DNA from: an uncultured Granulosicoccaceae bacterium | Lineage (GTDB): Bacteria > Pseudomonadota > Gammaproteobacteria > Granulosicoccales > Granulosicoccaceae | Length of the DNA: 64,000 bases | Direction: 5' to 3' | Assembly (NCBI GenBank): GCA_937927895.1 | Contig: CALGKA010000033.1 | Span: 1 to 64,000, forward strand | Shown: positions 45,458 through 61,078 of the stretch, piece by piece | Numbering within the stretch: position 1 is the first letter of the stretch | How the letters are laid out: every line of letters begins with the position of its first letter | The notes under the pieces: generated by a model | Databases searched by the model: none | Told to the model about the DNA's origin: nothing | What the model saw: only the letters and a program-made list of their open reading frames with translations | Program-made: the position numbers and the translations under genes

Positions 45458-47296
45458 CTACAGCCGTTTTCGCACATAGCCAATAAACTCTACTACTGCA
45501 TCATTACCACACCCGTATTCGTCGCTGCTATACACCTGCGATCCATTTCTGCACGTAAACAATGCTGTGGTATTAGCAGAGCCGTGCTCAGAAACATACC
45601 CTATTGGCCCATAAGACCGAGCACCACTGCAATAAACATCGGTACTAATATAAGAGCTCTGCCCCGACTGACATTCGTAAGCCATATAAGCACCAGGCTG
45701 ATAGTCACGCAACAGAAACCATTGATCAACTGTAGAGTATGAATCCCCTACAACACGGGTAGATGCACGATAATCACCACTCGCATTAACACTACTCACA
45801 AGCTTTGTATAAGGTAGATTTTCAAAACCACAGTCCAGGTTATCGCGCTGACTCCCACGACCACTCATACTTTCCCAAGTATACCAGGCAGGTTTTGCAG
45901 AACCGTCATCACGTCGCAAACCAAGTGCCACACCATGCACTGCTTCCAGCGGATGATCTTTCATGCGGTGGTAAATATAGTTTTCAATGCCTGGCGTACC
46001 CAAAGTATTTCTATAGGAATTACAAACAGCAATACGCTGACTGTATTCATCAGACAAACCAGCTGAGCTAACGCCATTCTCTGTTAAGTGAACTTCCCAT
46101 GACTCTGGTTGGTACGGAAACTCTTGACGTAACCACCCTGACAACACACCGATATTGCCGAATGTCACATAAGGCAGATCATCAAACGAAGCGGCAGCAC
46201 TATCAAGTCGCTTATGATAAGGATGATACGCAATACGCCACTTACGCCCGGCGGCGCGTGCATGTAGACCACGGATAAACGTTTTAACTGATAAAACGGG
46301 GTTACTACCGGTAGGATTATCAAAGGTGGTATCAAATTGATGAGCCAGTGAAATTAAAACTCGCGCCGCAGGCTGAATTGATTTAATTCGATCATAAGCG
46401 GCGTTAAAGTTATTTGAATAATCTGCAATCCATTTTTCTGTATCACACGGCACGCCAGATCCACATTCAACCTTGTACCATTGGTTCATGTTGACTTCGT
46501 TGTGGATAACAAAATCTGCTATTCGACCATGACCATTTAAGCCGTTATAGCGCTCGGCAATCATTGCCGCAAAGCGCGCGTAGTCATTAGCATTATTGGT
46601 ACTGCAAAACTTTTCAGTTGATTCGCTGGTGGCAGTACACACATTATTGTTACGCGCCCAGGCTGGCACGCCATACAAAATACCGGTGACGGTTTTGCCC
46701 TGCGCTGACCAATATTTAATTTTTTGATCAAACGGTGATTGCACAGTGAAGCAAGCGCCGTCAAACTTTATCTGCGACGAAGTACAATTATTCGAGCGCG
46801 AGGGCTGCCAACTCTCCCATACAAGGTTAACACCTATACCCGCCGTGTTGGCATCAAGTAGCTCCTGGCTGTTTGGCCAAAAATCTGTGTTAACCGATTT
46901 AATATCAAAACCCGTTCTATTTGGATAAGCCAGACTGCCATTAAGATCTATTGCTTGCGGCAGGCGTTCTATGCGGCGCTCATAAGGAACAGAGTACTCA
47001 GCATTTTGCGCAACTTGACTACTTGGACTAGCGCCTTGAACTGTGACCGTTGCACCTGAGCCCACACGACAAGATTCCACACCATTCCAACCCCATCCGT
47101 CACCATCTGTATCTATGCAGGCTGTGGTCGCTGCTCGCGCGATACTTTGCATGACGCACGACTGCTGGCCATCCCACCCCCAGCCATCACCATCTGTGTC
47201 TACACATTCCCCGGCACTTTGTGCACTGGAGATCACTGGGATTAATGCGGTACCAATAGAAAATATAACTGCACTTATTGCTGTTCTAATTTTCAT
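45458..47296 (-). CDS. Exported clan-A glycosidase-like protein with WGWDG modules
   Basis: A 612-aa secreted protein. The signal peptide ends near ISSAQSA (about residue 28). Two type-A modules follow (C31-C47 and C60-C76; CVDTDGDGWGWDG, CIDTDGDGWGWNG). A TIM-barrel-like domain covers about residues 100-480 with the clan-A pattern: candidate acid/base E267 in IHNEVN and nucleophile E406 in HLTENG. IENYIYHRMKDHP and SAKPAWYTW recall the DUF5722 group, from memory. The C-terminus has two repeats of about 40 residues (C542-V568, C582-V608). A Met five codons upstream is possible. The reaction is inferred only. Confidence 0.7.
   Translation of the reverse strand: MKIRTAISAVIFSIGTALIPVISSAQSAGECVDTDGDGWGWDGQQSCVMQSIARAATTACIDTDGDGWGWNGVESCRVGSGATVTVQGASPSSQVAQNAEYSVPYERRIERLPQAIDLNGSLAYPNRTGFDIKSVNTDFWPNSQELLDANTAGIGVNLVWESWQPSRSNNCTSSQIKFDGACFTVQSPFDQKIKYWSAQGKTVTGILYGVPAWARNNNVCTATSESTEKFCSTNNANDYARFAAMIAERYNGLNGHGRIADFVIHNEVNMNQWYKVECGSGVPCDTEKWIADYSNNFNAAYDRIKSIQPAARVLISLAHQFDTTFDNPTGSNPVLSVKTFIRGLHARAAGRKWRIAYHPYHKRLDSAAASFDDLPYVTFGNIGVLSGWLRQEFPYQPESWEVHLTENGVSSAGLSDEYSQRIAVCNSYRNTLGTPGIENYIYHRMKDHPLEAVHGVALGLRRDDGSAKPAWYTWESMSGRGSQRDNLDCGFENLPYTKLVSSVNASGDYRASTRVVGDSYSTVDQWFLLRDYQPGAYMAYECQSGQSSYISTDVYCSGARSYGPIGYVSEHGSANTTALFTCRNGSQVYSSDEYGCGNDAVVEFIGYVRKRL
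47069..47206 (-). repeat. Two type-A WGWDG disulfide modules
   Basis: Two copies, each with 15 residues between cysteines, in the pattern C-[IV]-D-T-DGDGWGW-[DN]-G-x3-C, separated by 12 residues right after the signal peptide. The D-x-D-x-D-G spacing resembles calcium-binding loops such as those of dockerins and thrombospondin type 3 repeats. Confidence 0.8.
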
Positions 47297-47854
47297 AACA
47301 ACAAATACCATTTTTAATTTAAGCGTGCTGTGGTCGTGCTGGTTAATACAAAAGCAAGACTCACAAATAGTGCACGACCATAGAAGCCGAACGCTTACAC
47401 GTACTCACACCACTTCACAAAAACCCGACCGTTATTCGTTACCAAAAAGAAACCTGATAGATAATGTTGAGAGGCTTATTCACTTCAAAAGTAGAACGAT
47501 CAAAAGGCGTGTAGGCACTGGTACTTTTTTGTAACTATTGAATTACCGATAATCAAACACAAATATTGTCCGGCACCTCCCAGACCCATTCGACAGCATT
47601 GCTTAAGAATCAAAATTTCTAATACATCGAACTTGTGTATCTATTAGCTGACAATTTAAATTGGCGGATCGTGCTGGATAGACGGCGTTTTGTACGAACT
47701 GTTTTCAACAACATTCATTATCTCATTTCAGTATCCGAACTTTCATTCGTTGGCAAGGGAATGCAAACACAACACATGATAAACTAGCGTTATAATTCAA
47801 ATGGACACGGGTACTACGGTGTTAAAATCCACACAACCGCGAGACACTTACATC
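47297..47854. other. 560-base divergent intergenic region
   Basis: It lies between the glycosidase-like gene (minus) and the OmpA-type lipoprotein gene (plus), so it should hold both promoters. A consensus -10, TATAAT, lies at 47791-47796, with no good -35 at 17 bases. No promoter was placed for the minus gene. Open frames here have no coding character. Confidence 0.5.
47791..47796 (+). promoter_or_regulatory. Candidate -10 box for the OmpA-type gene
   Basis: A perfect TATAAT 58 bases before the ATG at 47855. Transcription from here would start at or after the upstream in-frame ATG at 47801, which supports 47855 as the start codon. The -35 region is poor. Confidence 0.35.
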
Positions 47855-48787
47855 ATGCGACAACAGCTGCCAGTGGCATCAGATCGACTTAATCGTTTTG
47901 CACTTGCACCAATGTTTTTTGCGTGGTTGTTAAGCAGTGGCTGTACAGCTAACCTACCCGATGCGCCAACGACCCTGGAATTCGATCCAGTTATTGCAGC
48001 GCCTGAGCCAGAAGCACTCCCGACAAACCAGACAGCACTTCCCTCACCAGAACAACAGTTACCAGAGCCATCACTGCAAGTCACACCTCAGTTTGACGAC
48101 CTCACAGTGCCGAACGGTTTAACTACCGACACTAGTTCCTCTATCGACACTCTAAACACAGCATCACCCTTAGTCACCGACAATGTCATTCAACCTGCAA
48201 CAGAAGCATCTACATCAGAAGCGGTAGTACCCGAAGTAGCATTGATCGAAAGCACCGTCATCAACCAACCCGCTGACCCAATAATAGATCTGAGCAGCAT
48301 AGGCCAAAGCCAGCCCAGCAATGATAAATTCAATAATGATCAATTCAATAGTGAAGTAACGATCAGTGCTAACGAATCCGCATTAAGCACTACATCTGGC
48401 TGTCCGAATATCGCAGAACTACAACCATTAGAAGACGGTGGCTGCACTTTAACAATGGATGCGCAACTGGCAGTTACCTTTTTTATAAACTCAGACAAGC
48501 TAACAAAAGAAGCTTTCAGAACGCTAGACAGAGTGACAGATGCATTGGCTACCTGGCCTGTGAGCACCATAGAAATAGACGCACACACCGATAACCGAGG
48601 TGACCCAGCCAAAAACCTTGCCTTATCAATTAGCCGCGGCAGAGCTGTAGCAAAGTACTTTGAAAGCAAAGGGTTTGCTTTGGACTCAATCGAAGCCAGA
48701 GCGTTTGCCGGTGAAAGACCAATAGCCAGCAACGAGACCGCCACCGGACGCCGTACTAACCGACGCGTAGAACTAAGGTTTTTCTAG
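47855..48787 (+). CDS. OmpA-family outer-membrane lipoprotein
   Basis: A 310-aa lipoprotein: lipobox LSSGC with Cys30, a long Pro/Thr/Ser/Glu-rich linker (about 31-200), then an OmpA C-terminal peptidoglycan-binding domain. Key residues are in TFFINSDKLT, IEIDAHTDNRGDP and LSISRGRAVAKYF, ending with TGRRTNRRVEL. It should anchor the outer membrane to peptidoglycan. A lipoprotein of this design may also display or support the neighbouring secreted proteins, but that is speculation. Confidence 0.88.
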   Translation: MRQQLPVASDRLNRFALAPMFFAWLLSSGCTANLPDAPTTLEFDPVIAAPEPEALPTNQTALPSPEQQLPEPSLQVTPQFDDLTVPNGLTTDTSSSIDTLNTASPLVTDNVIQPATEASTSEAVVPEVALIESTVINQPADPIIDLSSIGQSQPSNDKFNNDQFNSEVTISANESALSTTSGCPNIAELQPLEDGGCTLTMDAQLAVTFFINSDKLTKEAFRTLDRVTDALATWPVSTIEIDAHTDNRGDPAKNLALSISRGRAVAKYFESKGFALDSIEARAFAGERPIASNETATGRRTNRRVELRFF

Positions 48788-48954
48788 TCACACAAAGCTG
48801 TTTACTAAATATCGTCGCGCGCAATAGCCGCGCTGTGTCAAAAAGCTCCCTGGATGCACCAATAAGCTCTCACTAAACGAGCAGTTCTAGTGACGAACTC
48901 ACGTGTAATATGAGACTATCACTCCTCCCATCAGCATAGAAATAATGGGTAGGT

Positions 48955-49656
48955 ATGATCAAATTCAAAAATGAAATCACCAATCGTGAGTGGATTTTCG
49001 GCTCTGCCGTAATAACCACAATGATATGGGTTAATTACTTATTCCCGGTATTTTCAAGCAATGGCACCATGGTGATTCAAAAAATACCCAACGGCGCTAT
49101 AAACTACTTACTGCTCTACCCGCAAAATTTCAAATCGATTCCGTTCGGAATAATCACCTCGCAGTTTTACCATCTAAATAATCTACATCTATCTTCGAAT
49201 ATTTCAATGTTGATTATATTTATGATTATTTTGGCAAAAATATCGACGCGCTTTATCGCTATTATTTGCATGTGTGCGTTGTTGTCTGGTGCACTTACAT
49301 GGATGTTTCATCCAGTAGAAAACGAATACACCAATCTTCTTGGTGCATCAGGCTTAATATTCGCCATTTTGGGCTACATTTGCTTGCGTATAATCGTTAA
49401 CATTGATCTATACCAAGAGATGAAAACCAAGTACTCCTTAAAAGCATCTACTGCAATAGCCACCAACTTCTGGGTATCGTTTGTCAGCCTCAGCATAATA
49501 ATGATCTACTGGGAGAACATGGTAAGCCTGATGATTGTGCAAAACGATACCTCATCAATATCTTTTCATGGTCACCTTATTGGCTTTATTTCCGGTTTGA
49601 TTATCTACGCACTAGAAATTATTTATATGTTATTCAAGCGCTCTAAAGAAAATTAG
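48955..49656 (+). CDS. Rhomboid-family intramembrane serine protease
   Basis: A 233-aa polytopic protein. The catalytic serine is in LLGASGLIF (Ser132) and the catalytic histidine is H205 or H207 in FHGHLIGFISG. LHLSSN (His78, Asn82) on the earlier helix matches the rhomboid oxyanion-side motif. About six helices are present. Substrates are unknown. Lies between an OmpA-type lipoprotein and a nucleotidyltransferase. The protein is AT-rich in coding compared with neighbours. Confidence 0.75.
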   Translation: MIKFKNEITNREWIFGSAVITTMIWVNYLFPVFSSNGTMVIQKIPNGAINYLLLYPQNFKSIPFGIITSQFYHLNNLHLSSNISMLIIFMIILAKISTRFIAIICMCALLSGALTWMFHPVENEYTNLLGASGLIFAILGYICLRIIVNIDLYQEMKTKYSLKASTAIATNFWVSFVSLSIIMIYWENMVSLMIVQNDTSSISFHGHLIGFISGLIIYALEIIYMLFKRSKEN

Positions 49657-49703
49657 CCACTCTATTAAATTCGCCACTCTATTTTAGCGCTAAATTTGTA
49701 GTG

Positions 49704-50621
49704 CTAAATTCCCTTAGGCGCGGCTAGTTTTAACAACGAGTTTCTTACAACGGCTACATCCTGGGAGTAAGTTATGCCCATCCATTTTTCAAACGAATCA
49801 ATGACCTTCACCTGTAGCAATTCAGACTTTATAGCGGCATTTACCGTATCGGAAAGATAGAATTCATCTTGAATTAGATCAGGTGTATTTTTTAAAAAAG
49901 TTTGAAATTCTTTTTCTAGTATGCCAAATATTGACGGCACAAAACCCCAAAAGGTCATTGATACAATAGAATCAGCGCTTATCACAGCACTGCTATCAGC
50001 ATCTCCATTTCGTATAGCCCCTGACGGACCAGCTGAAATATTAATGACCTCCTTTATTGATTCAAGATAACCGTCACTACTGACTGTACAAATACCCCGA
50101 TTTACCCCGCCAGTACCACTTAATGTATTCTTCAATTTATAGCCAGACATAGCACATGCCTTAGAACAGCACACATGCTCTAAAAGGTATTTTGCCATTT
50201 TCTGGTAATTTTCCACCCCATAGTAGTCGTCAGCATTAATCACTAAGAATGGGTTGCGAATGTGTTCTTTACACACCAACACCGCATGCGCTGTACCCCA
50301 TGGTTTGACTCTGGAACGCCACTCACGATTTAGGCACGGCTTCACAAAGGCCGCTTGCGTTTGAATGACAAACTCAACTTTAAGCGCCTCACCATAAGCG
50401 CTTAAACTTGTAGAAAATTCATTGCTGTTTTGCTCTTCACTAACAATAAACACTACGTGGTTAAATCCAGCCTTAAAGGCATCATGCACGCTGTACTCAA
50501 ACAGTGATTCGCCATTAGGTCCAACGGCGGCCAACGGCTTGTCACCTCCGAATCTTGAGCCCCTGCCCGCCGCCAGAATTATTAGCGAGAGCGGGCGCTT
50601 TTTGTAGCCAGTGTTTTGCAT
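49704..50621 (-). CDS. Nucleotidyltransferase (sugar-phosphate NTP transferase family)
   Basis: A 305-aa NTP_transferase fold. The opening IILAAGRGSRFGGDKPLAAVG holds the G-x-G-x-R nucleotide loop and signature lysine. VINADDYYGVENY carries the metal-binding Asp. Members activate sugar-1-phosphates or related molecules to NDP derivatives, for polysaccharide, lipid or cell-wall synthesis. The acceptor sugar cannot be read. The gene is monocistronic between two divergent secreted-protein genes. Confidence 0.82.
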   Translation of the reverse strand: MQNTGYKKRPLSLIILAAGRGSRFGGDKPLAAVGPNGESLFEYSVHDAFKAGFNHVVFIVSEEQNSNEFSTSLSAYGEALKVEFVIQTQAAFVKPCLNREWRSRVKPWGTAHAVLVCKEHIRNPFLVINADDYYGVENYQKMAKYLLEHVCCSKACAMSGYKLKNTLSGTGGVNRGICTVSSDGYLESIKEVINISAGPSGAIRNGDADSSAVISADSIVSMTFWGFVPSIFGILEKEFQTFLKNTPDLIQDEFYLSDTVNAAIKSELLQVKVIDSFEKWMGITYSQDVAVVRNSLLKLAAPKGI

Positions 50622-50814
50622 AGGCCATTATTAGCATAAATATGGACACATAGTTTTATTGCCACACGACCTCTCGCGACCGACTGTACATGCACGAAAC
50701 CTTTTTCACTTAGAGGCTGCACTAGACTCCAGCAGTACTACCAACGTTCATTCCCATTTCGCATTAACCCGCCAATAAACATAACGATGACCTCTCTTTA
50801 CACCGCACTAAAAC

Positions 50815-50843
50815 TTGCAATTGAAGGACAGCGGCGTTATAAA
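50815..50843 (+). promoter_or_regulatory. Candidate sigma-70 promoter of the WGWDG protein gene
   Basis: TTGCAA (50815-50820), exactly 17 bases, then TATAAA (50838-50843). Predicted transcription start is near 50850, inside the ATTGTCATGAC motif, with a 5' leader of about 28 bases before the ATG at 50878. Confidence 0.5.
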
Positions 50844-50846
50844 TTA

Positions 50847-50857
50847 ATTGTCATGAC
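50847..50857. promoter_or_regulatory. Shared motif ATTGTCATGAC, copy 1
   Basis: Contains the palindrome GTCATGAC just after the -10 box. The same 11-mer occurs at the corresponding place upstream of the second WGWDG/domain protein gene (59587-59597), so it may be a common operator. Confidence 0.4.
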
Positions 50858-50877
50858 GATAAATTTGGTGATTCAAT

Positions 50878-51996
50878 ATGAACACGCTAATTTGCAAGCA
50901 TACAAAATATCTAGCAGCCGCTCATGTACTGCTATTGCTGTGTAGTTTTAATGCAACCGCAGCCGATGCCCCAATATGGCCTTGTGATGCTCAGTCAGAT
51001 GATCACGATGGCAATGGATTTGGTGGCGCTGGTTCCTCTTGTCTAGTGACCGTAGAATCACGTCCACCACCGCAAATAACTGACCTCGAAACTGGCGAAA
51101 GCATCTTGCCATTGCGCGCCTATTGGACAGAATCAGATCTAGCGAGTAAACCTATTGAATGCCAACTGTATGACTGGATAAGTTTTCAAAACGCTTATAT
51201 TCCCTACGATTGGACCACCACCTATACACACTTGCAATGGGGCTTTGATGGCGACGCCTTCATTGGACGTGTGGTCGAAGATTACAATGAACCGTCACGC
51301 AATATCGCAACCACCACAGCAGACCAATATTGGCAATTAGACAATGGCTACTACTATGGTCCCGGGCCATTTGGTGATTCACGCTATGTCGAATTAATAG
51401 AAGGCGACAACCCAAATACCAATGCTATACGTATCTGGCGCTTTGGCTCATCAAAGCAGTTCTGGTCGTGCAAACCTATTGATCCGAATGAATTCCTATG
51501 GCCTTGGGTCTTTCCTCCCACAACCAATACAATCACCGATCTATACTTTGTGAGATGTGACGACTCTGCACCCATAGGCGACGGCTGGGGTTGGGATGGC
51601 TATGGTTCCTGCATTTATGAAGAAGGCACCGACAACTATCGATACGTTAAACCAGAGTACGTGGGTGCAACACCTTTACCCCCTGGTGACACTGTGAGTG
51701 ATGGCTGTGACTATACCGACGCGGATCTATACCAGGGCTGGGGCTGGAATATCTATTTAAAAGAAAGCTGCCCACCAAAAGGCTCACAAACAGAACAACC
51801 CACTGATCCGGCAACAGAACAACCCGGCAACGAACTGGAGTGCATCGATTCTGATGGCGACGGTTGGGGCTGGGATGGCTTTGCCACTTGCATACCCGAA
51901 TCATCGGCATCGGGTCAATGCGATTACAGCGATGCAGGCATCTATAACGGATGGGGCTGGAATGCCACAACCCGGGAAAGCTGCCCGCCCGGATAA
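50878..51996 (+). CDS. Exported WGWDG-module protein with one unknown domain
   Basis: A 372-aa protein with a signal peptide (cleavage near ATAADA, residue 29). In order: a divergent type-A module (C36-C55), one copy of an unrecognised domain of about 130 residues (69-198, begins LETGESILPLRAYW), a type-A module (C227-C245), type-B (C277-C298), a linker with repeated EQPTDPATEQP, type-A (C322-C338) and type-B (C348-C369). Seven Trp-Gly-Trp-like motifs and many paired cysteines point to an extracellular disulfide-stabilised protein. Closest relative in the window is the 59657-61078 gene. No catalytic motif is seen. Confidence 0.75.
   Translation: MNTLICKHTKYLAAAHVLLLLCSFNATAADAPIWPCDAQSDDHDGNGFGGAGSSCLVTVESRPPPQITDLETGESILPLRAYWTESDLASKPIECQLYDWISFQNAYIPYDWTTTYTHLQWGFDGDAFIGRVVEDYNEPSRNIATTTADQYWQLDNGYYYGPGPFGDSRYVELIEGDNPNTNAIRIWRFGSSKQFWSCKPIDPNEFLWPWVFPPTTNTITDLYFVRCDDSAPIGDGWGWDGYGSCIYEEGTDNYRYVKPEYVGATPLPPGDTVSDGCDYTDADLYQGWGWNIYLKESCPPKGSQTEQPTDPATEQPGNELECIDSDGDGWGWDGFATCIPESSASGQCDYSDAGIYNGWGWNATTRESCPPG
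51556..51984 (+). repeat. Alternating type-A and type-B modules
   Basis: Order A-B-A-B: A at 51556-51612 and 51841-51891, B at 51706-51771 and 51919-51984. All type-B copies have exactly 20 residues between cysteines (CDYTDADLYQGWGWN, CDYSDAGIYNGWGWN). The 20-nt stretch at 51856-51875 is identical to 60935-60954 in the other gene. Confidence 0.8.
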
Positions 51997-52013
51997 ATAG
52001 AACCAACCACTGA

Positions 52014-53324
52014 TTAGGTGACTGCGTTAAGCCTTTCTTTTATTTCCATAAAAGAGGGGCGCTTTATAACATTCGCTTGCATACAAGAATCTTTGAGTGA
52101 CACTAGTGCTGCAAAAGGCTCATGAGACTCCACGGCCCTACTACAACAGCCCAGTAAATCTTCCAACAAACAACCAAAGGCTCGCACCTCTATTGCTTGC
52201 ATTGCACGCTTTTGCGATTCACTTAAGGACGCATAGTTAGACGCCGCGCCAAAATCACCAAACAATATATCACCGCTACTATTAAACAATATATTGTGGG
52301 CGTAGAGATCACCATGAGAAATGCCTTTCTCGTATAGATGCAACATGGTGTGTACTATGCCCAATGTTATTTTCCCTAATGCAGTAACGGTTAACACAAA
52401 CTCTTCGGAAAAATGATCACGAGTACAGCTTTCAAATGTGGGTGGCTCACCGAGATTACTAAAACCCGTCTCAATTAATGCCATCACCAACCCCAGCTGT
52501 TGAGGCTCTTCAACTTTTGCTACTAGCTTAACTAAATTAGCGTGCGATCCAGCGGCAATACAGGCGCTCAGTTCGTCCTGTGGATAACCATCACTGGTGA
52601 TTTCACCTTTATATTTTTTTAGCGCAACGGGCTGATTTACTATTCCCTGCGGGGTATTCACCCAACCAGCCTCACTGATCACCCCTGAAGCTCCCTGCCC
52701 CAATACTTTACCCAATTTAAGATCACTAAAACAAACGGTGGGAAGAGAACTACTTTCAAACGTTTTGCAAAAGGGATTACCCGCAAATGCCAACCACGCT
52801 AACTTTGGCAAGTGCAACAAAAAATCAGGCAATGCATCAAATCGATTAGCTGAAATTCTTAGCAATTCTAGTGCTTTGCACTGACTCATAGAATCTGGTA
52901 GCTCTGTAAGCTTATTACCAGCAAGCATTAGCTTCTGTAACGTAGCCAACGAACCCATCGAATCTGGCAGTGCGGAAATTTTATTATCGGTTAAGATCAA
53001 CCAACGGGTGGCAGGCGGCAAAGCACCGTCAGGCACTGTATGTATTTCATTAGCTTTAAAACCAATCATGCTAAGCGCTGAACACTCAGCCAATACACTT
53101 GGCAACACTTCAAATTGGTTATCGGACAAAAACAGTATTTTAAGTTTCTTCAGACAAGCAAACTCTTTTGGCAACGCTTTTAAGCTATTACCGGAAAGAT
53201 CTAATATCTCTAGAGTGTCTGCAAGATCCAATATTTCAGTTGGAAACTCAGTGAGGTTTTCTGAAATCTTTACACGGGCAGCCCCATTTAGAGCGCCTGC
53301 GTTTAATTCTGCAATAGTTTGCAC
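52014..53324 (-). CDS. Leucine-rich-repeat protein kinase
   Basis: A 436-aa cytoplasmic protein. LRRs of about 23 residues (LDLSGNSLKALP and similar) cover residues 36-182. A eukaryotic-like kinase domain (203-430) follows with the Gly loop LGQGASGVI, Lys236 in VALKKY, catalytic HGDLYAHN (Asp339, Asn344) and metal-binding DFG (Asp357), so all catalytic residues are present. It should phosphorylate Ser/Thr of an unknown target. The GTG start is taken from the first in-frame codon. It converges with the WGWDG gene, 17 bases between stops. Confidence 0.86.
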   Translation of the reverse strand: MQTIAELNAGALNGAARVKISENLTEFPTEILDLADTLEILDLSGNSLKALPKEFACLKKLKILFLSDNQFEVLPSVLAECSALSMIGFKANEIHTVPDGALPPATRWLILTDNKISALPDSMGSLATLQKLMLAGNKLTELPDSMSQCKALELLRISANRFDALPDFLLHLPKLAWLAFAGNPFCKTFESSSLPTVCFSDLKLGKVLGQGASGVISEAGWVNTPQGIVNQPVALKKYKGEITSDGYPQDELSACIAAGSHANLVKLVAKVEEPQQLGLVMALIETGFSNLGEPPTFESCTRDHFSEEFVLTVTALGKITLGIVHTMLHLYEKGISHGDLYAHNILFNSSGDILFGDFGAASNYASLSESQKRAMQAIEVRAFGCLLEDLLGCCSRAVESHEPFAALVSLKDSCMQANVIKRPSFMEIKERLNAVT

Positions 53325-53425
53325 GCGAGCATATTCTTATTATTAAGTAATAGGCAATTATACTTGAATACCTGGAGCACTACTGCACGGCTTACTTTAT
53401 AGTTGCCCCACCCTTTTAAACCACG

Positions 53426-54367
53426 TTAACCCATACGCAGTAAAAACCACGACCAGAAACTAACACTAAACACCGCCACACAAGTACTGAGTAACACGGT
53501 TGCAGCAGCTGTACCTTCCGCACGACCATACATGTTCGCAAACATATAGGAGTTAACACCCGGCGACATAGCAGCCAACAATACAACAATGGTGCGATTC
53601 ATCCCTTCCACATCAAAGGCTGCACAAAGCATTAGTGCTAGCAGCGGCTGTAACAATAACGAAATGATCGCGACCGTCACAGTTTCCGCGATTCGCTCAG
53701 TGAGTTTGTAACGAGTCAAAATACCACCCAGCCCAACAAGCGCTAGCGGCAAAGCCGAGCTGGCAACCATATCAAATGCAGTAGCTGCCACGCTTGGCAA
53801 TGGCAGTTTCGCAAAATTAAATAAAAACCCCAGACCTATACCCACCATAATGCTGTTACTAAAGATAGATCGAAAAACAACAGCAATGGTGTCTAATAAA
53901 GGCCGCCCATCAGCACGCAGAGACTCCATGGCAATGATACCAATGAGGTAACAAAACGGCGCATGCAAGGAGACAATCGCGTAAGCGGCAGGCATGGCCT
54001 TTTCACCGAGGGTCATGTTAATGACTGGCAGACCAAGCAATACCAGATTTGAAAACAAACCTGCAAACCCTACCGCCACCGCTTCACCCGGGCGTCGATC
54101 AAAAACCTTCCATGCCGCCAACAAACCAACGGTAAAACACACAAACGCCGCACCATAGAAAGAGCTAAGCGAGCGCCAGTCGTAGGCTGCCCCCAGATCA
54201 ATGGTTGAAACTGCTCTGAAGAGTAAGCACGGAATGGCAAATTTAATTGCATAACGCATCAATGCATCAATAGTGGCCGCATCGAATAAAGAGCGCTTAA
54301 CCGCTATGTAGCCGACCAGTACCAATAAAAATACTGGGCCGACGGTATTGAGTAGATGGGATATCAC
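53426..54367 (-). CDS. AEC-family membrane transporter
   Basis: A 313-aa transporter with ten hydrophobic segments of the auxin-efflux-carrier family. Its N-terminus (LLNTVGPVFLLVLVGYIAVKR) and the ALVGLGGILTRYKL and SPGVNSYMFANMYG stretches are typical. Members export or import organic acids such as malonate or malate; the substrate is not predictable. Monocistronic. Confidence 0.84.
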   Translation of the reverse strand: MISHLLNTVGPVFLLVLVGYIAVKRSLFDAATIDALMRYAIKFAIPCLLFRAVSTIDLGAAYDWRSLSSFYGAAFVCFTVGLLAAWKVFDRRPGEAVAVGFAGLFSNLVLLGLPVINMTLGEKAMPAAYAIVSLHAPFCYLIGIIAMESLRADGRPLLDTIAVVFRSIFSNSIMVGIGLGFLFNFAKLPLPSVAATAFDMVASSALPLALVGLGGILTRYKLTERIAETVTVAIISLLLQPLLALMLCAAFDVEGMNRTIVVLLAAMSPGVNSYMFANMYGRAEGTAAATVLLSTCVAVFSVSFWSWFLLRMG

Positions 54368-54445
54368 GTGCAGGCGCTATAGAATTGTATAATTACCGCA
54401 CAGAATAACACGAACTTAGCACCGATCCTTTGAGTCCTTTAAGAA

Positions 54446-54501
54446 AGCAAGTGAGAAAAAGCAAGTAAGAGAAAGCAAGTAAGGGAGAGCACGTAAGGGG
54501 C
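54446..54501. repeat. Four tandem 14-bp repeats
   Basis: Unit AGCAAGTAAGRGAR: AGCAAGTGAGAAAA, AGCAAGTAAGAGAA, AGCAAGTAAGGGAG, AGCACGTAAGGGGC. It lies in the 194-base gap between the AEC transporter and the methyltransferase genes. Purine-rich on the plus strand. A short minus-strand frame across it is a by-product of the repeat. Confidence 0.85.
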
Positions 54502-54561
54502 ATACCAAATTCAATACTACGGATTATGTTACTACACAGGAACCCCACACTTGCAATGCAG

Positions 54562-55716
54562 CTAACCCTCAAGCTTAACAACACATTCTAAATGCGAAGT
54601 CTGTGGAAACATATCAAGCGGCTGCACAGAGCCTACTTGATAGCCATTATTGACAAGCAACTTAAGGTCACGAGCAAGAGTTGCCGCGTGACAAGAAACA
54701 TAGATTAGTTCTTTTGCCGGGCGCTTGCACAACGCTTCACAAACAGCAGTATCCAGCCCTGCCCGTGGTGGATCAACAATACAAAAGCTTTTTTTAACCT
54801 TGATTTTATCTAACGCCTCTTCTACTTTCGCCAATAGATACTTAACATTCTGCAACCCCTGTTGCCTTGCACGAGATTGAGCCAAAGTAATATTGTCTGG
54901 CATTGCATCAATACCCAACACCGCGGCTTCAGGCAATTTTTTTGCTATCGTATTTGTCCAATCACCACGACCACAGTACAAATCATTCACGATTGTAGTA
55001 TCGCTATTGCTCACCGCTTCAAGAACAATATCATTCAGTACCTGGCCCATTTCGGTATTGACTTGCCGAAAACCCAAGGCACTTGTCTGTTTAGGTTTTA
55101 GCGCCTCCACAGACACTTTATTTTCGGTCACCCCAATTTCTACCTTAGCAGCCGCCATACCTGCAAAGCCTTTTTCAAGCCGCTGGTTAATTAGATCATC
55201 CGCGATCTCACACTTAGCTATAGCAATTAGCTTATTACTCTTTTTACGCATAAAGTGAAAACCACCATCACGAATTTGACCCTGGATTCGATTCCGATAG
55301 CGTGTCGGCTTTGGTGAAGAGATGATCGGCTTAATTTCAATATCAGCCAGCCCACCAATGCGGGCCAGCGTTTCACGCAGCTCTGCAACCTTTACCTCCA
55401 GTTGCATTTGATACGGAATATGCAACCAATCGCAGCCACCACATTTACCAAAGTAGCTGCACGACGGTTCTATGCGATCCGCACTTGGTTCTACCACCTC
55501 TAGCAACTCAGCGATCAAAAAAGAGCCTTTATCTTGCTGCACTTTTATACGTACCTGATCACCGGGCATGGTGTACGGTACAAAAACTACCTGCTCATCC
55601 AGATGCCCCAAGCCATCTCCAGCATTGGTGAGAGCGGTAATAGCAAGGGTTAGCTCGCGCCCCTTATATTTTCCAGACGCTTGATGCCGCTTACTTTTTA
55701 TTCTGTTAATGTTCAT
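54562..55716 (-). CDS. rlmD: RlmD/RumA-type RNA uridine-C5 methyltransferase
   Basis: A 384-aa SAM-dependent methyltransferase. A TRAM domain covers residues 16-80. The iron-sulfur cysteines are CSYFGKCGGC (C86, C92, C95) plus a later Cys near 173. The SAM-binding/catalytic region has LYCGRGDWTN and DPPRAGLD, and the nucleophile is in YVSCHAATLARD (Cys342). E. coli RlmD methylates U1939 of 23S rRNA; this protein is shorter than the usual 430 aa, so RlmC/RumA-like specificity is not excluded. Confidence 0.85.
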   Translation of the reverse strand: MNINRIKSKRHQASGKYKGRELTLAITALTNAGDGLGHLDEQVVFVPYTMPGDQVRIKVQQDKGSFLIAELLEVVEPSADRIEPSCSYFGKCGGCDWLHIPYQMQLEVKVAELRETLARIGGLADIEIKPIISSPKPTRYRNRIQGQIRDGGFHFMRKKSNKLIAIAKCEIADDLINQRLEKGFAGMAAAKVEIGVTENKVSVEALKPKQTSALGFRQVNTEMGQVLNDIVLEAVSNSDTTIVNDLYCGRGDWTNTIAKKLPEAAVLGIDAMPDNITLAQSRARQQGLQNVKYLLAKVEEALDKIKVKKSFCIVDPPRAGLDTAVCEALCKRPAKELIYVSCHAATLARDLKLLVNNGYQVGSVQPLDMFPQTSHLECVVKLEG

Positions 55717-55857
55717 TGTCTTAATGTTATACGAGCGATCAGTCAGACACCTAGTACTTTACTCAGTAAAAGTGCCTATTTGCTTCTACAAGCTGCTTAT
55801 CGTAAATCTCGTGTAAGATCATTCAATGATCCTCACATCAACAACAACGACCGCAAA

Positions 55858-56310
55858 ATGAAAATCTGGGTAGATGCCGATGCGTGCCCCGTGGCGATGC
55901 GCAAAATTCTTTTCAAAGCTGCGCTACGCACGGGCACACAAGTAACACTGATCGCCAATCACGCGGTATCAGTACCACCATCACCACTAGTCACCATGCG
56001 ACAAGTGCCGCAGGGATTTGATGTTGCCGACGACGAAATCGTACGCCTGGTAGAGTCAGGGCACCTTGTTATCACCAGCGACATCCCCCTTGCCAGCGAG
56101 GCTATTGAAAAGGGCGCAACAGTAATTAACGGCCGCGGCGAATTACTAGACAAACAAAATATACGCGGCTTACTCAGTATGCGTGATTTCATGGATACGC
56201 TACGCGGCAGCGGTATTCAAACAGGCGGGCAATCAGCATTAGGACAAACAGAAATAAAAGCATTTGCCGATCAACTGGATCGCTGGCTAGCACGCCAGGC
56301 CAATAAATAG
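55858..56310 (+). CDS. yaiI: YaiI/YqxD (UPF0178, DUF188) family protein
   Basis: A 150-aa PIN-like fold protein. It starts MKIWVDADACPVAMRKILFK, the typical family opening, and has PQGFDVADDEIVRLVESGHLVITSDIPLA split by a short turn, and INGRGELLDKQNIRGLLSMRDFMD. Members are putative nucleases of unknown target. The internal ATG at 55858 is used because family similarity starts there; the frame is open to 55681. Confidence 0.86.
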   Translation: MKIWVDADACPVAMRKILFKAALRTGTQVTLIANHAVSVPPSPLVTMRQVPQGFDVADDEIVRLVESGHLVITSDIPLASEAIEKGATVINGRGELLDKQNIRGLLSMRDFMDTLRGSGIQTGGQSALGQTEIKAFADQLDRWLARQANK

Positions 56311-56456
56311 ACATACTTGGCAGACGAAGTGGCGCATTCCTTATAGCCGATAAAAATGCTCAGCGAAATTCTTAACCCATACCCTTAATCAACAACCCAA
56401 GAACGCACCTATTCATATAAATGTAGTACGATCCACCGTAGGGAATGGGAACACCA

Positions 56457-57433
56457 ATGATTACCGAAAAGCTCCAACACAAGCTTAATAAGATCAAATC
56501 CGGTCAGTATAAGAGCACCGATTTTATTATCGCCGATGCCAAAGATGCTGATATGGCATTCGGAATAGCTGCCCCTGGACCAGCTGCCAACGGTACTCAC
56601 TACAAAACCCGTGAAGACTACCTAACCGCCATGTCTGCCATGGCAGAAAGTGAGCTTATCGATATTCTTTTAATGTCTGCATCATCGGCTGAAGCACTCC
56701 ATTCACGCAACCTGTTCAAACAAGTACAGGTCACACCCGCAGTCAGACTAAACGACACAACCGATATCTGGTCGGCACGCGGTTCAAACTACCGTGAAAG
56801 TCCCTCTATGCCTTTTGCAACTGCCGACCTCGATGCAATCAAGGGATTGTGCCAACTAGGGTTATATTCGATAACATTCAGCAATAATCTAAAAGCAGAT
56901 AAAGCGACCCTTGAAAGCTATCGCGATTTCGGCTAGCTATCAGAGACACAGGCATTAAACATTTTCTAGAGGTGTTTAATCCGGCATTTGATATAAAGCT
57001 TAATAATGCATCACCTGGTGACTACATCAACGACATGATTTTAAAAACGCTTGCCGGTGTCACCCAAATAGACGCGCCGCTGTTTCTAAAAATGCAATTC
57101 AATGGTCAACAAGCAATGGCTGATTTGTGCGCTTATGACCCAAGTAATTTAATTGTTGGTATCCTTGGAGGGTCAGCAGGCACCACCCGCGACACCTTCG
57201 AGCTTGCACAACAGGCAGAACAAGCAGGTGCACGTGTAGCGTTGTTTGGACGAAAAATAAACCTTGCAGAATCTCCCATTGAACTAGTAAGGCTTATGAG
57301 GTCTGTGATTGAAGGCGACCTTACCGCATCACAAGCGGTTATTGCCTACCACGATCACCTGGCTGAATTTTTAATCACGCCTCTGCGAACACTCAAAGAA
57401 GACAACTTGATTACTGAACAGGTATTACACTAA
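56457..57433 (+). pseudogene. Aldolase-like (beta/alpha-barrel) gene broken by a frameshift
   Basis: Frame one runs from 56457 to TAG 56934-56936, ending YRDFG. The next frame continues directly from 56933 (LAIRDTGIKHFLEVF) to 57433. One extra base in the GGC near 56933 would join them into one protein of about 325 aa without loss. The C-terminal part (GGSAGTTRDTFELAQQAEQ, GARVALFGRKIN) resembles class-I aldolase-like proteins. No slippery heptamer is at the junction, so programmed frameshifting is unlikely; mutation or sequencing error is favoured. Start chosen by GGGAA upstream of 56457. First gene of an operon with a PfkB kinase and SMP-30 lactonase. Confidence 0.65.
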
Positions 57434-57451
57434 CCAAGGCTGGCCACGCAT

Positions 57452-58486
57452 ATGCTAACGTCAGAACGAAAAGGCATTATAAGCGCTGGCACGTGGGCGC
57501 TTGATCGAATCAAATTAATTGACTGCTGGCCTCAAGAGGAACACTTAGCACAAATTATAGCAACCGATATGCAAGGCGGTGGTTCCGGGTACAATTTAGC
57601 GGTAGACATTGCATGCCTCGACCCTCACCTACCCGTACAAGCGATTGGCCTGGTGGGAAACGATACCGACGGTGATTTTCTATTATCACTTGCTGCAAAA
57701 AAAGGCATAGACACAAGCCAACTGCATAAAACCAAAAATGAACGCACATCGTATACAGATGTCATGAGTGATCACAATACTGGCAAGCGAACGTTCTTTC
57801 ACTACCCAGGCACCAGCCACTTACTTTCACCTGATCATTTCGATTTTAGCCAATGCAGCGGCAGACAGTTGCATCTAGGCTTACTCGGCTTGCATAACAC
57901 CATGGACTCGCCCTGGAAGGACTTTGAAAACGGCTGGGTAGCGGTGCTTGCTGCCGCCAGGGAATATGGCATAAAAACCAATCTGGAGCTTGTCTCAATT
58001 GAAAGCCAAAAAATTCGTGATATAGCACTGCCGTGCCTACCCTTTCTGGACTCTCTGATTATCAACGAATATGAACTGAGTGCTTTATCCAATAAACCAG
58101 TCTCTAACGCTAATGGTCAAGTAGACACGGCACTGTGTACAGCGGCGGCAGAATCATTAATGCAAAAGAGCGCAATGCAATACATGGTTGTGCACTTTCC
58201 ACAAGCTGCTATTGCAATCACCACTGACGGCACAGTCACCACCAAAGAGAGTTTCAATGTTCACTCATCCTGGGTTAAAAGCACAGTAGGTGCTGGTGAT
58301 GCCTTCGCCGCAGGTATGCTATACGGACAACATGAAAACTGGGCTATAGAAAAATCGTTAGAGCTTGCACACGCAGCCGCCGCTGCCAGCTTACGGGCCG
58401 CAACCGCTACGGGTTCAGTTGATAACGTGCAGGCATGCTTAGCATTTGCACAATGTGCTGATACCAAAAAGCGTCAAATTAAATAA
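57452..58486 (+). CDS. PfkB-family carbohydrate kinase
   Basis: A 344-aa sugar or nucleoside kinase. The ATP/substrate signature STVGAGDAFAAGML is near residue 275 with the catalytic Asp. The N-terminal GGGSGYNLAVDIACLD matches the first PfkB signature. The substrate is unknown. It starts 18 bases after the aldolase-like gene and is followed by the lactonase, so a sugar-catabolic unit with steps of lactone opening, phosphorylation and aldol cleavage is plausible. Confidence 0.85.
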   Translation: MLTSERKGIISAGTWALDRIKLIDCWPQEEHLAQIIATDMQGGGSGYNLAVDIACLDPHLPVQAIGLVGNDTDGDFLLSLAAKKGIDTSQLHKTKNERTSYTDVMSDHNTGKRTFFHYPGTSHLLSPDHFDFSQCSGRQLHLGLLGLHNTMDSPWKDFENGWVAVLAAAREYGIKTNLELVSIESQKIRDIALPCLPFLDSLIINEYELSALSNKPVSNANGQVDTALCTAAAESLMQKSAMQYMVVHFPQAAIAITTDGTVTTKESFNVHSSWVKSTVGAGDAFAAGMLYGQHENWAIEKSLELAHAAAAASLRAATATGSVDNVQACLAFAQCADTKKRQIK

Positions 58487-58512
58487 ATTCATAACTAGTT
58501 CGGAGATACGAG

Positions 58513-59472
58513 TTGCCACCACATAAAGACCAAAATGACTGGAAACCAAGCCAACGATATCCAGATCCACGTGTAGTGACACTAGAGCCTGAGTTCAACA
58601 AATTGATTTTGCCATTAGCAAAAGTAGAACGCTTAGCAACAGGCTTCAGGTGGTGTGAAGGTCCGGTGTGGTTCGGTGATACCCGCCAACTTATATGGAG
58701 TGATGTACCAGGCAACTGTATGTATAAGTGGGATGAACAAAGCGGCCAGACTTCAGATTTTAGAAAGCCTTCAGACAACGGTAACGGCAACACTCGAGAT
58801 CGCCACGGGCGGCTAATCACTTGCGAACACCTTAACCGGCGGGTAGTACGCACCGAATACGATGGCAACACTACTGTGATTGCAGATGCCTATAACGGTA
58901 AGCGCCTGAATTCACCTAACGATGTTATCTGTAAATCGGATGGATCAATTTGGTTTACTGACCCGGTATTCGGCATACTGGGTAACTACGAAGGTATCGT
59001 GGCAGAGCCTGAACTACCGACAAATGTTTATCGTGTAGATACTGATGGCAGTATATCCATTGTGGCAGAAGGTATTAATCAACCCAACGGTTTAGCATTT
59101 TCACCGGATGAATCAGTTTTATATATTGTTGAATCACGCAGCGAACCAAGAAATATTCTGGCTTACGATGTCAGTAATAAAAATGAACTAAGCAATAAAC
59201 GTGTTTTTATTGACTCAGGGCCAAACGGCACACCCGATGGATTCCGCGTTGATACCCATGGCAATTTATGGTGCGGCTGGGGCATGGGCCAAGACACCCT
59301 TGACGGTGTGCATGTGTTTAACAATACCGGCAAACGCATTGGTAGAATTGACCTACCAGAGCGATGCGCCAATGTTTGCTTTGGCGGTTTGCATCGCAAC
59401 CGATTATTTATGGCAGCCAGCACATCGGTCTATTCACTGTTCGTGAATACCCAGGGTGTTGCCGGCGGATAA
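58513..59472 (+). CDS. SMP-30/gluconolactonase/LRE-family protein
   Basis: A 319-aa six-bladed beta-propeller lactonase. Metal-ligand segments are visible: WCEGPVWFGDTRQLIW, NSPNDVICKSDGSIWFTDP, NQPNGLAFSPDES and TPDGFRVDTHGNLWCGWG. It would hydrolyse a sugar lactone in a periplasmic or cytoplasmic oxidative sugar pathway; no signal peptide is seen. The start is TTG, supported by GGAG at 58502-58505. Last gene of the sugar operon. Confidence 0.85.
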   Translation: MPPHKDQNDWKPSQRYPDPRVVTLEPEFNKLILPLAKVERLATGFRWCEGPVWFGDTRQLIWSDVPGNCMYKWDEQSGQTSDFRKPSDNGNGNTRDRHGRLITCEHLNRRVVRTEYDGNTTVIADAYNGKRLNSPNDVICKSDGSIWFTDPVFGILGNYEGIVAEPELPTNVYRVDTDGSISIVAEGINQPNGLAFSPDESVLYIVESRSEPRNILAYDVSNKNELSNKRVFIDSGPNGTPDGFRVDTHGNLWCGWGMGQDTLDGVHVFNNTGKRIGRIDLPERCANVCFGGLHRNRLFMAASTSVYSLFVNTQGVAGG

Positions 59473-59561
59473 AACACCCACTCTGATTTTGCCAACCGAA
59501 GACTTTGTTGCGATGTCATTTACAAGAGACCATTTTTAACAAAATAGCGCACTGCTGCCTA

Positions 59562-59589
59562 CTTACAGTGGCAGAGAACGTGCTATATT
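59562..59589 (+). promoter_or_regulatory. Candidate promoter of the second WGWDG protein gene
   Basis: CTTACA (59562-59567), 16 bases, then TATATT (59584-59589), directly followed by GTCATGAC. Weaker than the promoter at 50815-50843 but with the shared motif at nearly the same place. Confidence 0.3.
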
Positions 59590-59597
59590 GTCATGAC
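59587..59597. promoter_or_regulatory. Shared motif ATTGTCATGAC, copy 2
   Basis: Identical to 50847-50857, upstream of the related gene. Includes the palindrome GTCATGAC overlapping the predicted -10/+1 region. No copy was seen upstream of the glycosidase-like gene. Confidence 0.4.
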
Positions 59598-59656
59598 ACA
59601 ACGAAACCAGATAATATCGTTAGTTTGATAAATAAGTAACATCAGCGAAGTCAGAT

Positions 59657-61078
59657 ATGAACAAAATCACCTTATTGTTAAGCGCACTTGTACTGGTGAA
59701 TGCCGCCCCACCAACAGCACATGCAGCCGAGACATTTCAACCTGGCTGTGACTACAGTGATTCCGCACTGTACGGTGGCTATGGTTGGCACCCAACTCTT
59801 AGACAATCTTGTGACCCGGTGATCAATGAAGAGCTCGGCACAGCAGTTGAATTAACACCTGTTGTGTGGGATGGCAACGCAGATATAGCTAACCGTACTA
59901 TTCAATGCGATTTATACCAGTTTGACTCCGCGCAGCAACAATATCAGCTTGACGCCAACGATGTTCGTCGACGCTACCAGCTACAACATCTGTCATTATC
60001 ACCAACCGCACCTTTCAATGGGTGGAAAACATACATCGCTACAAACAACAGTGACTATAACCTTGCCTATGAATTCTCGGAGTGGTCAATTGAGAACGGT
60101 GTCTACAAGGGCGGTGGACCATTAGATTCACCCTACTTCGAACTCATTACAAAAGCAGACGGCTCTAAAGCGGTACGTCGTTGGTTAAGCGATAAGTTCT
60201 CTGCATGGACTACCTTTGGAAGGAACAATCAAGTAGGCTTTGAGAACTCTGGATACTACGAGTGCAGAGACCTATCAGGTGCTAACTTCGAGCCTACAGG
60301 CACCGCGGGAAATCCAACGACTAATCCTGCCTCGCTTTCTAATCTTGAATTTAGCGTTTCTCCAAATCCAGATGCCGCCCAACCTGGTGCGCTAATTAAT
60401 CAAGAGACTGGCCAGGCAGTTGATCTTATAAAAGCACACTGGAACTACAACACTGACATTGCTGGAAAAAAAATTCAGTGTGAATCAGGCAGCTTCGCAA
60501 CTTACAATTCAACCTATCAGCTGAATGGCTTTAAGTCTATAACACACCCGTACCATTACACTGATTCAGAAAATAGAATCCATTACCGACTCAACCCGGG
60601 CCATGAAGGATTGTCTCCCATTGTCGGCAGCTATTCACTTACGAACAACACGCTACAGTTTTCACAGGTTAATAACGCTGCGGCGTGGGAATACAGCTTC
60701 CTGGTTAATCCAATTTTCTCATCCGAGTACGTTGAGTTAGTCGGCAATGGCATCAGGGTTTGGCATGACGCAGATAACTATGAACAATGCTACAACATAC
60801 AACCAACAGGCAACACAATCACTGTTAATGATTCATGCGACTACAGTAGTGCTGATCTATACAATGGCTGGGGGTGGAATCCAGTAACACGGCAATCATG
60901 TGCACCGCGCACTTCAGAATGTATTGATTCAGACGGCGACGGTTGGGGCTGGGACGGTACTAATTCTTGCGAGGTTAGCACTACAATCAGCACAATCAGC
61001 ACAATTGCGACCGAATGTATCGATACCGATGGCGACGGTTGGGGTTGGGATGGTAGCGCTTCCTGCCGACTACCCTAA
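59657..61078 (+). CDS. Exported WGWDG-module protein with two unknown domains
   Basis: A 473-aa protein with a signal peptide ending near AHAAE (residue 24). In order: type-B module (C31-C52), unknown domain copy 1 (about 57-203; LGTAVELTPVVWDGNADIA), Asn/Thr/Pro linker, unknown domain copy 2 (about 247-378; TGQAVDLIKAHWNYNTDIAG), type-B (C394-C415), type-A (C422-C438), a Ser/Thr linker and type-A (C454-C470) at the extreme C-terminus. The two domain copies have matching IQC cysteines and VELV/FELI plus IRVW/VRRW motifs. No enzymatic residues are apparent. Confidence 0.75.
   Translation: MNKITLLLSALVLVNAAPPTAHAAETFQPGCDYSDSALYGGYGWHPTLRQSCDPVINEELGTAVELTPVVWDGNADIANRTIQCDLYQFDSAQQQYQLDANDVRRRYQLQHLSLSPTAPFNGWKTYIATNNSDYNLAYEFSEWSIENGVYKGGGPLDSPYFELITKADGSKAVRRWLSDKFSAWTTFGRNNQVGFENSGYYECRDLSGANFEPTGTAGNPTTNPASLSNLEFSVSPNPDAAQPGALINQETGQAVDLIKAHWNYNTDIAGKKIQCESGSFATYNSTYQLNGFKSITHPYHYTDSENRIHYRLNPGHEGLSPIVGSYSLTNNTLQFSQVNNAAAWEYSFLVNPIFSSEYVELVGNGIRVWHDADNYEQCYNIQPTGNTITVNDSCDYSSADLYNGWGWNPVTRQSCAPRTSECIDSDGDGWGWDGTNSCEVSTTISTISTIATECIDTDGDGWGWDGSASCRLP
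60836..61066 (+). repeat. C-terminal B-A-A module tail
   Basis: Type-B at 60836-60901, type-A at 60920-60970 and 61016-61066. The two type-A copies share GGCGACGGTTGGGG at DNA level (60935-60948 and 61031-61044). Confidence 0.8.

Follow-up and report, generated by a model that had tools for sequence, protein, structure and literature searches.

The window analysed here, a stretch of 64,000 nucleotides from contig CALGKA010000033.1 of an uncultured Granulosicoccaceae bacterium, encodes three exported proteins of 617, 372 and 473 amino acids that carry short cysteine-bearing modules of two types, called A and B (Table 1). The relationships and the likely role of these modules are the subject of this study. 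They had been picked out in a sequence-only reading as related mini-domains of secreted proteins, and the three open reading frames (ORFs) are present in the ORF list where that reading had placed them. A six-frame motif search also bore out that type B occurs twice each in the 372-aa and 473-aa proteins, always with 20 residues between the cysteines, and that the 617-aa and 473-aa proteins each have two strict type-A copies. The two clear and two loose A copies claimed for the 372-aa protein had to be revised to one clear A module, one 19-residue variant (A′) and one degenerate copy. Besides the five A and four B modules of these proteins, the six frames of the 64 kb gave no strict match to either type. 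The DUF5722 domain of the 617-aa protein (E 1.7e-42 in a Pfam scan) is the only Pfam family over its cut-off in the three proteins, and an NCBIfam scan gave no match for any of them.

Table 1. Module-bearing proteins of the window and their parts (positions are those of the window).
Feature	Position	Strand	Basis or remark
617-aa exported protein	45458..47311	-	ORF list; signal-like N-terminus, two type-A modules, DUF5722 (PF18989) glycosidase-like domain
Type-A module CVDTDGDGWGWDGQQSC, 617-aa protein	47156..47206	-	strict motif; PF02013 12.7 bits, E 1.2, cut-off 23
Type-A module CIDTDGDGWGWNGVESC, 617-aa protein	47069..47119	-	strict motif; A profile 40.1 bits (profile built from this module and 54 others)
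372-aa exported protein	50878..51996	+	degenerate N-terminal module, one D domain, then A′, B, A, B
Degenerate N-terminal module CDAQSDDHDGNGFGGAGSSC, 372-aa protein	50983..51042	+	
D domain (about 150 aa, unnamed), 372-aa protein	51067..51486	+	alignment; 117.5 bits
A′ module CDDSAPIGDGWGWDGYGSC, 19 aa, 372-aa protein	51556..51612	+	
Type-B module, 372-aa protein	51706..51771	+	motif; 52.1 bits
Type-A module, 372-aa protein	51841..51891	+	strict motif
Type-B module, C-terminus of 372-aa protein	51919..51984	+	motif; 50.3 bits
473-aa exported protein	59657..61078	+	B-D-D-B-A-A
Type-B module, N-terminal, 473-aa protein	59747..59812	+	motif
D domain 1, 473-aa protein	59816..60301	+	AlphaFold2 model
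D domain 2, 473-aa protein	60386..60811	+	D alignment and profile
Type-B module, 473-aa protein	60836..60901	+	motif; 59.2 bits, best B match in 57 genomes (member of the query alignment)
Type-A module, 473-aa protein	60920..60970	+	strict motif
Type-A module, C-terminus of 473-aa protein	61016..61066	+	strict motif

In the genome to which the window belongs, at least 167 loops with a single cysteine pair were found in 52 open frames: 58 of type A, 22 of type B, 4 of type A′ and 83 of a third type, C, or of C length. The list, drawn from loci with a GWGW DNA pattern (102 occurrences, against 28 for a reversed control) and from PF02013 matches in a genome that is 92.6% complete, is a lower bound; class C as defined by regular expression takes in some 19-residue A′ modules and one-aromatic copies, here as well as in the masked clustering and the classing of D-domain proteins described below. 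Modules of types A, B and C are 17, 22 and 21 residues long, respectively, each with one cysteine pair. The consensus of type C is C-x-S-x-x-S-D-x-D-G-D-G-W-G-W-E-N-N-x-S-C, and type A looks like C minus four residues, with W-D-G or W-N-G replacing W-E-N. The stretch D-x-D-G-D-G is near-invariant in A and C, with its three aspartates 94-100% conserved, and is absent from B, which has marks of its own: C-D-Y at the start, a closing C-x-P whose P is present in 33 of 34 and an A-x4-G stretch before GWGW. The aromatic pair is conserved as well; W occupies the second aromatic position in 100% of A modules, both the 55 own and the 213 other distinct ones, and each GWGW position of B is 95-100% conserved. 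Most proteins have one to six modules in tandem, separated by variable linkers. A methionine followed by a hydrophobic stretch is present in 40 of the 52 frames; in 39 frames the first module begins at most 110 residues from the start, and in 14 the last one ends at most 40 residues before the C-terminus. The longest array noted (L037:2853-5456) has nine C-type modules by regular expression and about a dozen by eye, several without one aromatic (YEWENNQTC). Two frames with B modules (L018:4293-6221 and L011:2300-4024) have a single C-x-x-C-H (CLACHTG and CQSCHSA) between a signal-like stretch and the modules, which may be a heme c site of the tagged proteins.

Profile searches connect the modules to the CBM10 family. 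Pfam's CBM_10 model (PF02013) gave 92 matches in the window's genome, of which 48 are over the gathering cut-off alone and 12 more with their neighbours (60). It is type C that passes, whereas types A and B fail; on the window's contig this search matched a single A module and nothing else (12.7 bits, E 1.2), and the Pfam scan of the three window proteins listed no CBM_10 match at E≤10. The earlier view of A and B as a family of mini-modules on exported proteins stands, with the modification that the family has a named member. In profile-profile comparison A aligned with C over 16 columns (probability 98, E 1e-13) and with B over 8 columns (probability 93), values in which the GWGW part of the likeness is built in, as the modules were gathered by a C...GWGW...C pattern; that pattern does not account for the likeness of the acidic stretch or of the terminal S-C. 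Against solved structures, the C profile found the CBM10 structure 1E8R at its NGWGWEDQRSC core (E 0.0084; 0.0043 with flanks), the A profile found only the stretch IDADGDGHGW of gingipain (best E 0.13), and the B profile had no match.

Similar to CBM10 domains such as 1E8R of a Cellvibrio xylanase, the present modules have a G-W-G-W-[EDN] core followed by S/T-C and are small, cysteine-bearing and often in tandem on secreted carbohydrate-active enzymes. Unlike these domains they have a single cysteine pair and only two aromatics out of three, D-x-D-G-D-G is an extra element of A and C, and the cargo reaches far past carbohydrate-active enzymes. According to the accessible part of PMC8121702, CBM10 has two disulfides and binds via Tyr8, Trp22 and Trp24, while some subgroups lack aromatics or one disulfide and have a five- to six-residue insertion; one such module was required for galactomannan binding and gave no cellulose binding. 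In the CBM10 of a Bifidobacterium mannanase, for example, the first tyrosine and one of the disulfides are absent and five residues are inserted. The modules described here are similar to such forms in having a single cysteine pair and an intact aromatic pair; the subgroup of the Bifidobacterium module and SdGH5CBM10-2 is known on mannanases, and the same part of that source describes neither a genome-wide pool nor an A or B form. Because of the cut-off and profile results and the likeness to these reduced subgroups, type C is to be classed by its sequence as CBM10 under Pfam's rule, and A and B as relatives that fail the rule. At that level we regard it as established that A is related to C and C to CBM10; the CBM10 family is known, and the apparent novelty lies in types A and B, which no Pfam or NCBIfam model recognises in the window proteins. 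Our literature searches found nothing on a CBM10 expansion in marine gammaproteobacteria, on carbohydrate binding in Granulosicoccaceae or on DGDGWGW, and nothing joining CBM10, CBM2 and metagenome-assembled genomes (MAGs); no mention of CBM10 was found in the accessible parts of PMC5041132 (AB1), PMC8547425 and PMC9238374 (kelp MAGs).

The position of type B is less firm. Its match to C is weak (probability 73, E 3e-5, 9 columns), and with its own terminal marks and no acidic stretch B could be of separate origin, A being derived from C and B alike to both only through the GWGW loop. We hold such convergence to be quite unlikely, since B stands in the same arrays as A and C and replaces A on a homologue of the 473-aa protein: the homologue in the sister-genus genome G384 (55% over 406 aa) reads B-D-D-B-B-B where the window protein has B-D-D-B-A-A.

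Such exchange of module types is not restricted to one protein. Carbohydrate-active or seemingly carbohydrate-active cargo includes PL14, GH12, GH5, SASA esterases and DUF5722, and when 201 ORFs were clustered with their modules masked, 86 groups resulted, 30 of them with several members. At least 8 of these 30 differ in module types, a count that leaves out two of ten listed groups which rested on the overlap of regular-expression class C; some groups contain one gene fetched twice. The mixed groups include SASA (30 members), GH12, the D-domain proteins and one unnamed family (14 each). In the GH12 and SASA trees, supported clades contain A-tagged and C-tagged members alike, for example one of L079 (A), L038 (C) and L144 (C) with support 99/98 and another of L004 (C), L143 (A), L082 (A) and L172 (A) with 98/93; a GH12 with five A modules from the Acidimicrobiales genome G401 groups among C-tagged GH12s of the window's genome, on a long branch and with unsure placement. 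A DUF5722 homologue from AB1-2 (L172; 48% over 480 aa) has C+A where the window's 617-aa protein has A+A. Related cargo thus carries A, B or C interchangeably, which is a pattern of swappable tags and not of plug and socket. The proposal that A and B dock with each other was accordingly rejected: besides the swapping, B is unmatched in 2 of 14 genomes of the genus that all match A, and no cohesin was found over the cut-off in any of 8 genomes.

An indication of function comes from what relatives carry in place of the arrays. A homologue of the 473-aa protein in G377 (48% over 383 aa) has B-D-D, then GGG, a hydrophobic stretch and a basic end, and no C-terminal module. Among 38 distinct C-termini of D-domain proteins (nearly all profile-listed proteins; two weak partial matches, G374:C186 and G371:C22, were left out), 27 have an array only, 9 a hydrophobic tail only, one has both and one, a truncated frame, has neither (Fisher P 6e-7, with related proteins treated as independent). 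The tree of the last D domain, from which the truncated frame (L271) and L275 were dropped, comprises 36 rows with 10 of 33 branches well supported and requires 5-6 label changes, at least two of them forced; a supported trio (99/96) unites the window's 473-aa protein and L250, both with arrays, with L205, which has a tail. Seven of the nine tails have a G-G run ahead of the hydrophobic stretch, and the tails resemble GlyGly-CTERM. Rhombosortase, the enzyme of GlyGly-CTERM tails, is found over the cut-off of its model (TIGR03902) in all 14 genomes of the genus, in the window's genome at G000:C13. Its sorting system is comparable to the present case in that some homologues have a tail of like appearance at the C-terminal position of the array, but GlyGly-CTERM is a processed membrane tail and not a folded module. 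Between the module genes of the window, a rhomboid-type protease is encoded at 48955-49656 (+), which scores 40 bits with the rhombosortase model (cut-off 84).

The SASA esterases of the genus behave in the same way. A profile built from module-bearing esterases of the window's genome gave 130 matches in 14 genomes, and 41 proteins were sampled (ORFs of 30 loci plus six own loci, with ORFs running off the locus and near-duplicates left out). Of these, 16 have modules only, 16 a lipobox only, 4 both and 5 neither (Fisher P 5e-4, under the same assumption of independence), as judged by hydropathy and lipobox rules of our own, with doubtful lipobox calls in L001, L027 and L285; with open ORFs included, the tally is 16 with and 22 without modules. 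In the esterase tree (30 of 38 branches supported), 8 label changes occur, at least 7 of which are forced. Locus L025 (G000 contig C101) holds six tandem SASA esterase genes in the order lipobox, lipobox, modules, lipobox, modules, both.

Arrays and membrane anchors therefore nearly exclude each other in two unrelated cargo families, and because of these patterns modules and anchors look like alternative ways of keeping a secreted protein in place. The anchoring role offered by the sequence-only reading, next to the discarded A-B pairing, fits these comparative data, with arrays found largely where relatives have membrane anchors. Its other suggestion, stabilisation, would make the modules mainly small disulfide or calcium knobs and spacers against proteolysis without a specific ligand. 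One cysteine pair, the near-invariant D-x-D-G-D-G and glycines and the variable copy number would suit such a role. It would leave the near-exclusion with anchors in two families unexpected, the modules are related to a binding family, and the aromatic pair is near-invariant, though a short loop could hardly bury it; we consider this explanation very improbable.

Among relatives, the module set is nearly confined to one genus and its sister genus. With up to 25 candidates scored per genome, the A profile at E≤0.01 was matched in one of 369 genomes of the class, that of the window, and in none of the 368 others; together with the excess of the GWGW DNA pattern over its reversed control, this shows that the modules are no product of chance. 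In 57 relatives, with up to 150 candidates scored per genome and at E≤1, where the counts include type C, 20 had a match: all 14 genomes of the genus with 27-150 matches each, G384 with 59, two genomes of a third genus with 4 each, and three further genomes with one weak match each (E 0.11-0.21). The distribution of CBM_10 is much like that of A (17 of 57), and the B profile matched 15 of 57, namely 12 of 14 in the genus and G384, with traces in two further genomes. Scanning named genomes gave 554 pattern stretches, of which 340 were confirmed and 80 kept; by title, 58 of the latter are from Granulosicoccaceae, 10 from Chromatiales (6 MAG-68 and 4 AB1-2, 'ex Bugula neritina AB1'), 7 from 'uncultured bacterium', 3 from Acidimicrobiales and one each from Bdellovibrionales and Pacebacteria. 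The A profile had 65 matches in the Acidimicrobiales genome G401 and 8 in G402, 10 in G403 (Bdellovibrionales) and 16 in the 'Pacebacteria' bin G404. The modules thus occur in several phyla. Misbinned contigs were rejected as the whole explanation of the Acidimicrobiales copies, given 65 matches on many contigs, the occurrence of both module genes and WhiB on contigs C4, C10 and C15 of G401 and a GC content of the module ORFs (0.52-0.60) like that of the surrounding locus; G403, where two module loci have a GC content of 0.33-0.36, and G404 could be misbinned. Because module genes are found in Acidimicrobiales genomes, the modules and some cargo (GH12, SASA) are shared across phyla, and the 65 matches in G401, some of them on contigs with WhiB, fit the expectation for a tag that serves an environmental surface common to these bacteria. 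For a SASA gene bearing three A modules, the window's genome and G395, which belongs to another genus, share 95.0% identity over 821 nt (L012:4720-5540 against L074:1211-2031), which points to recent horizontal transfer or a misbinned contig.

The main rival to a polysaccharide-binding tag is a protein receptor. Dockerin-like modules would then plug secreted proteins into a receptor or scaffold at the cell surface, as do the CBM10-family dockerins of anaerobic fungi. In Pfam the description of PF02013 reads 'Cellulose or protein binding domain', and the accessible part of PMC12421816 regards CBM10 as the dockerin of anaerobic fungi, with one instance on a leucine-rich-repeat (LRR) protein, so that a CBM10-type module on many kinds of secreted protein is common to both. 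The cargo spectrum (LRR, CotH, peptidases, esterases, glycoside hydrolases) also recalls the dockerin-bearing proteins of Ruminococcus flavefaciens, for which the accessible part of PMC2930009 tabulates 28 leucine-rich-repeat and 16 peptidase modules, and a plug could also account for the replacement of membrane anchors by arrays and for D-x-D-G-D-G in A and C. This acidic stretch is shared, in the form D-x-D-x-D-G, with type I dockerins and thrombospondin type 3 repeats, from which the present modules differ by the aromatic pair and the Cys-Cys loop. Pfam listed no type I dockerin at E≤10 and no thrombospondin type 3 repeat in the window proteins; EF-hand_5 appeared with E 1.2, and TSP3_bac had one match below the cut-off, in L028. 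Calcium binding, the function of such spacings in dockerins and thrombospondin type 3 repeats, is possible for A and C as judged by the motif, and cannot hold for B because B is without it.

Several observations speak against docking. No cohesin (PF00963) was found over the cut-off in 8 genomes, where a single match at E 0.006 (G381) was seen and fungal-type cohesin was not searched for. The C profile listed 1E8R and no fungal dockerin chain at E≤10, and fungal dockerin chains are present in the PDB; in both respects the modules appear to differ from the fungal CBM10-type dockerins. Three interchangeable types in up to nine or more copies (L037) are unlike specific plugs, and Gammaproteobacteria, Actinomycetota and Bdellovibrionales would all have to possess a common receptor. 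We consider a docking function unlikely.

The most economical explanation is instead a retention tag for a repetitive surface, probably one of polysaccharide, on account of the CBM10 ancestry, the aromatic pair, the tandem copies, the partly carbohydrate-active cargo and the sharing across phyla. We favour, with somewhat better than even confidence, the reading that A and B are stripped-down CBM10 relatives which together with C form one pool of interchangeable retention tags, probably polysaccharide-binding. After export of the tagged protein, the loops would fold through disulfide formation, the cysteines presumably pairing within one module to close the loop around the G-W-G-W aromatic pair, and D-x-D-G-D-G may bind calcium. 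The paired aromatics of several loops would then bind a repetitive surface with avidity, possibly polysaccharide of an algal or plant wall or of a biofilm matrix, and the protein would stay where it is needed without a membrane anchor.

A number of points weigh against this reading. The Tyr-Trp-Trp face of CBM10 is incomplete, with no counterpart of the Tyr8 segment in A, B or C, and the second disulfide is missing in all three; CBM10s without the first tyrosine and CBM10s without one disulfide are on record in the accessible part of PMC8121702. The B-C match is weak, and the profile likeness is in part built in by the collection pattern. Cargo that is not carbohydrate-active includes LRR, CotH, fasciclin, gamma-glutamyltranspeptidase, peptidases and propellers. 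Dockerins, too, ride on non-carbohydrate-active cargo. In Acidimicrobiales the cargo is mostly peptidases or unmatched: the 30 module proteins of G401 and G402 comprise 4 Peptidase_M91, 3 with RTX repeats, 2 subtilases and one each of Peptidase_M90, GH12 and GDSL lipase, and at least 18 match no cargo family. With regard to the anchors, relatedness among the proteins is ignored by the Fisher tests, and the esterases were sampled; modules and lipobox occur together in 4 of 41 esterases (L025, L036 and L304 sound-looking, L285 doubtful), array and tail in 1 of 38 D-domain proteins, and single N-terminal modules with tails in L017, L042 and L205. The GlyGly-CTERM reading of the tails was made by eye, an NCBIfam scan in which the presence of the tail model is unconfirmed gave no such match for 10 tailed proteins, and the 41 of 57 relatives in which rhombosortase is over its cut-off include many that lack modules.

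The D domain, a cargo of about 150 residues present once in the 372-aa and twice in the 473-aa protein, was detected by its profile in 12 of 57 relatives (11 of 14 in the genus and G384), and 13 copies from the window's genome align with nine invariant columns. An AlphaFold2 model of D domain 1 of the 473-aa protein is a beta barrel (mean pLDDT 84, pTM 0.83) with a weak resemblance to lipocalins, its best Foldseek matches (apoM, 2wex, E 3.8e-3, TM 0.41; no match reached E≤0.001). The domain may be lipocalin-like and bind a ligand, an assignment that is not established.

As to the locus itself, the three module genes do lie within 16 kb, as had been emphasised, but they do not form a special cluster: they are on both strands with unrelated genes between them, and module frames number 52 genome-wide. 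The expected number per 15.6 kb is 0.18 and the Poisson probability of three or more 0.0008, uncorrected and for one preset stretch; the grouping is incidental. The tail of the 473-aa protein had no match at E≤0.01 in 72,556 plasmid and 50,697 phage records. An ORF at 52014-53324 (-) looks, on visual reading, like a protein with leucine-rich repeats and, after them, a protein-kinase-like domain containing an HGDLYAHNI loop.

A further-reaching version, which we consider improbable at present, would see A, B and C as a portable, genus-wide and cross-phylum surface-attachment code of CBM10-derived tags. Each protein would use a lipobox, a rhombosortase-type tail or an array, and much of the secretome (enzymes, peptidases, LRR proteins, CotH kinase, propellers) would be gathered on one shared surface or receptor, cellulosome-like without cohesins. 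Two module types without a model account for a sizeable unannotated share of the secretome in a Granulosicoccaceae genus, and the results suggest that CBM10-like modules serve as general attachment tags rather than as cellulase accessories. The swap of anchors and arrays on related proteins is a natural experiment, from which it is predicted that tags and anchors do the same job. A binding tag of 17 residues with one disulfide would also be a potentially useful laboratory tool.

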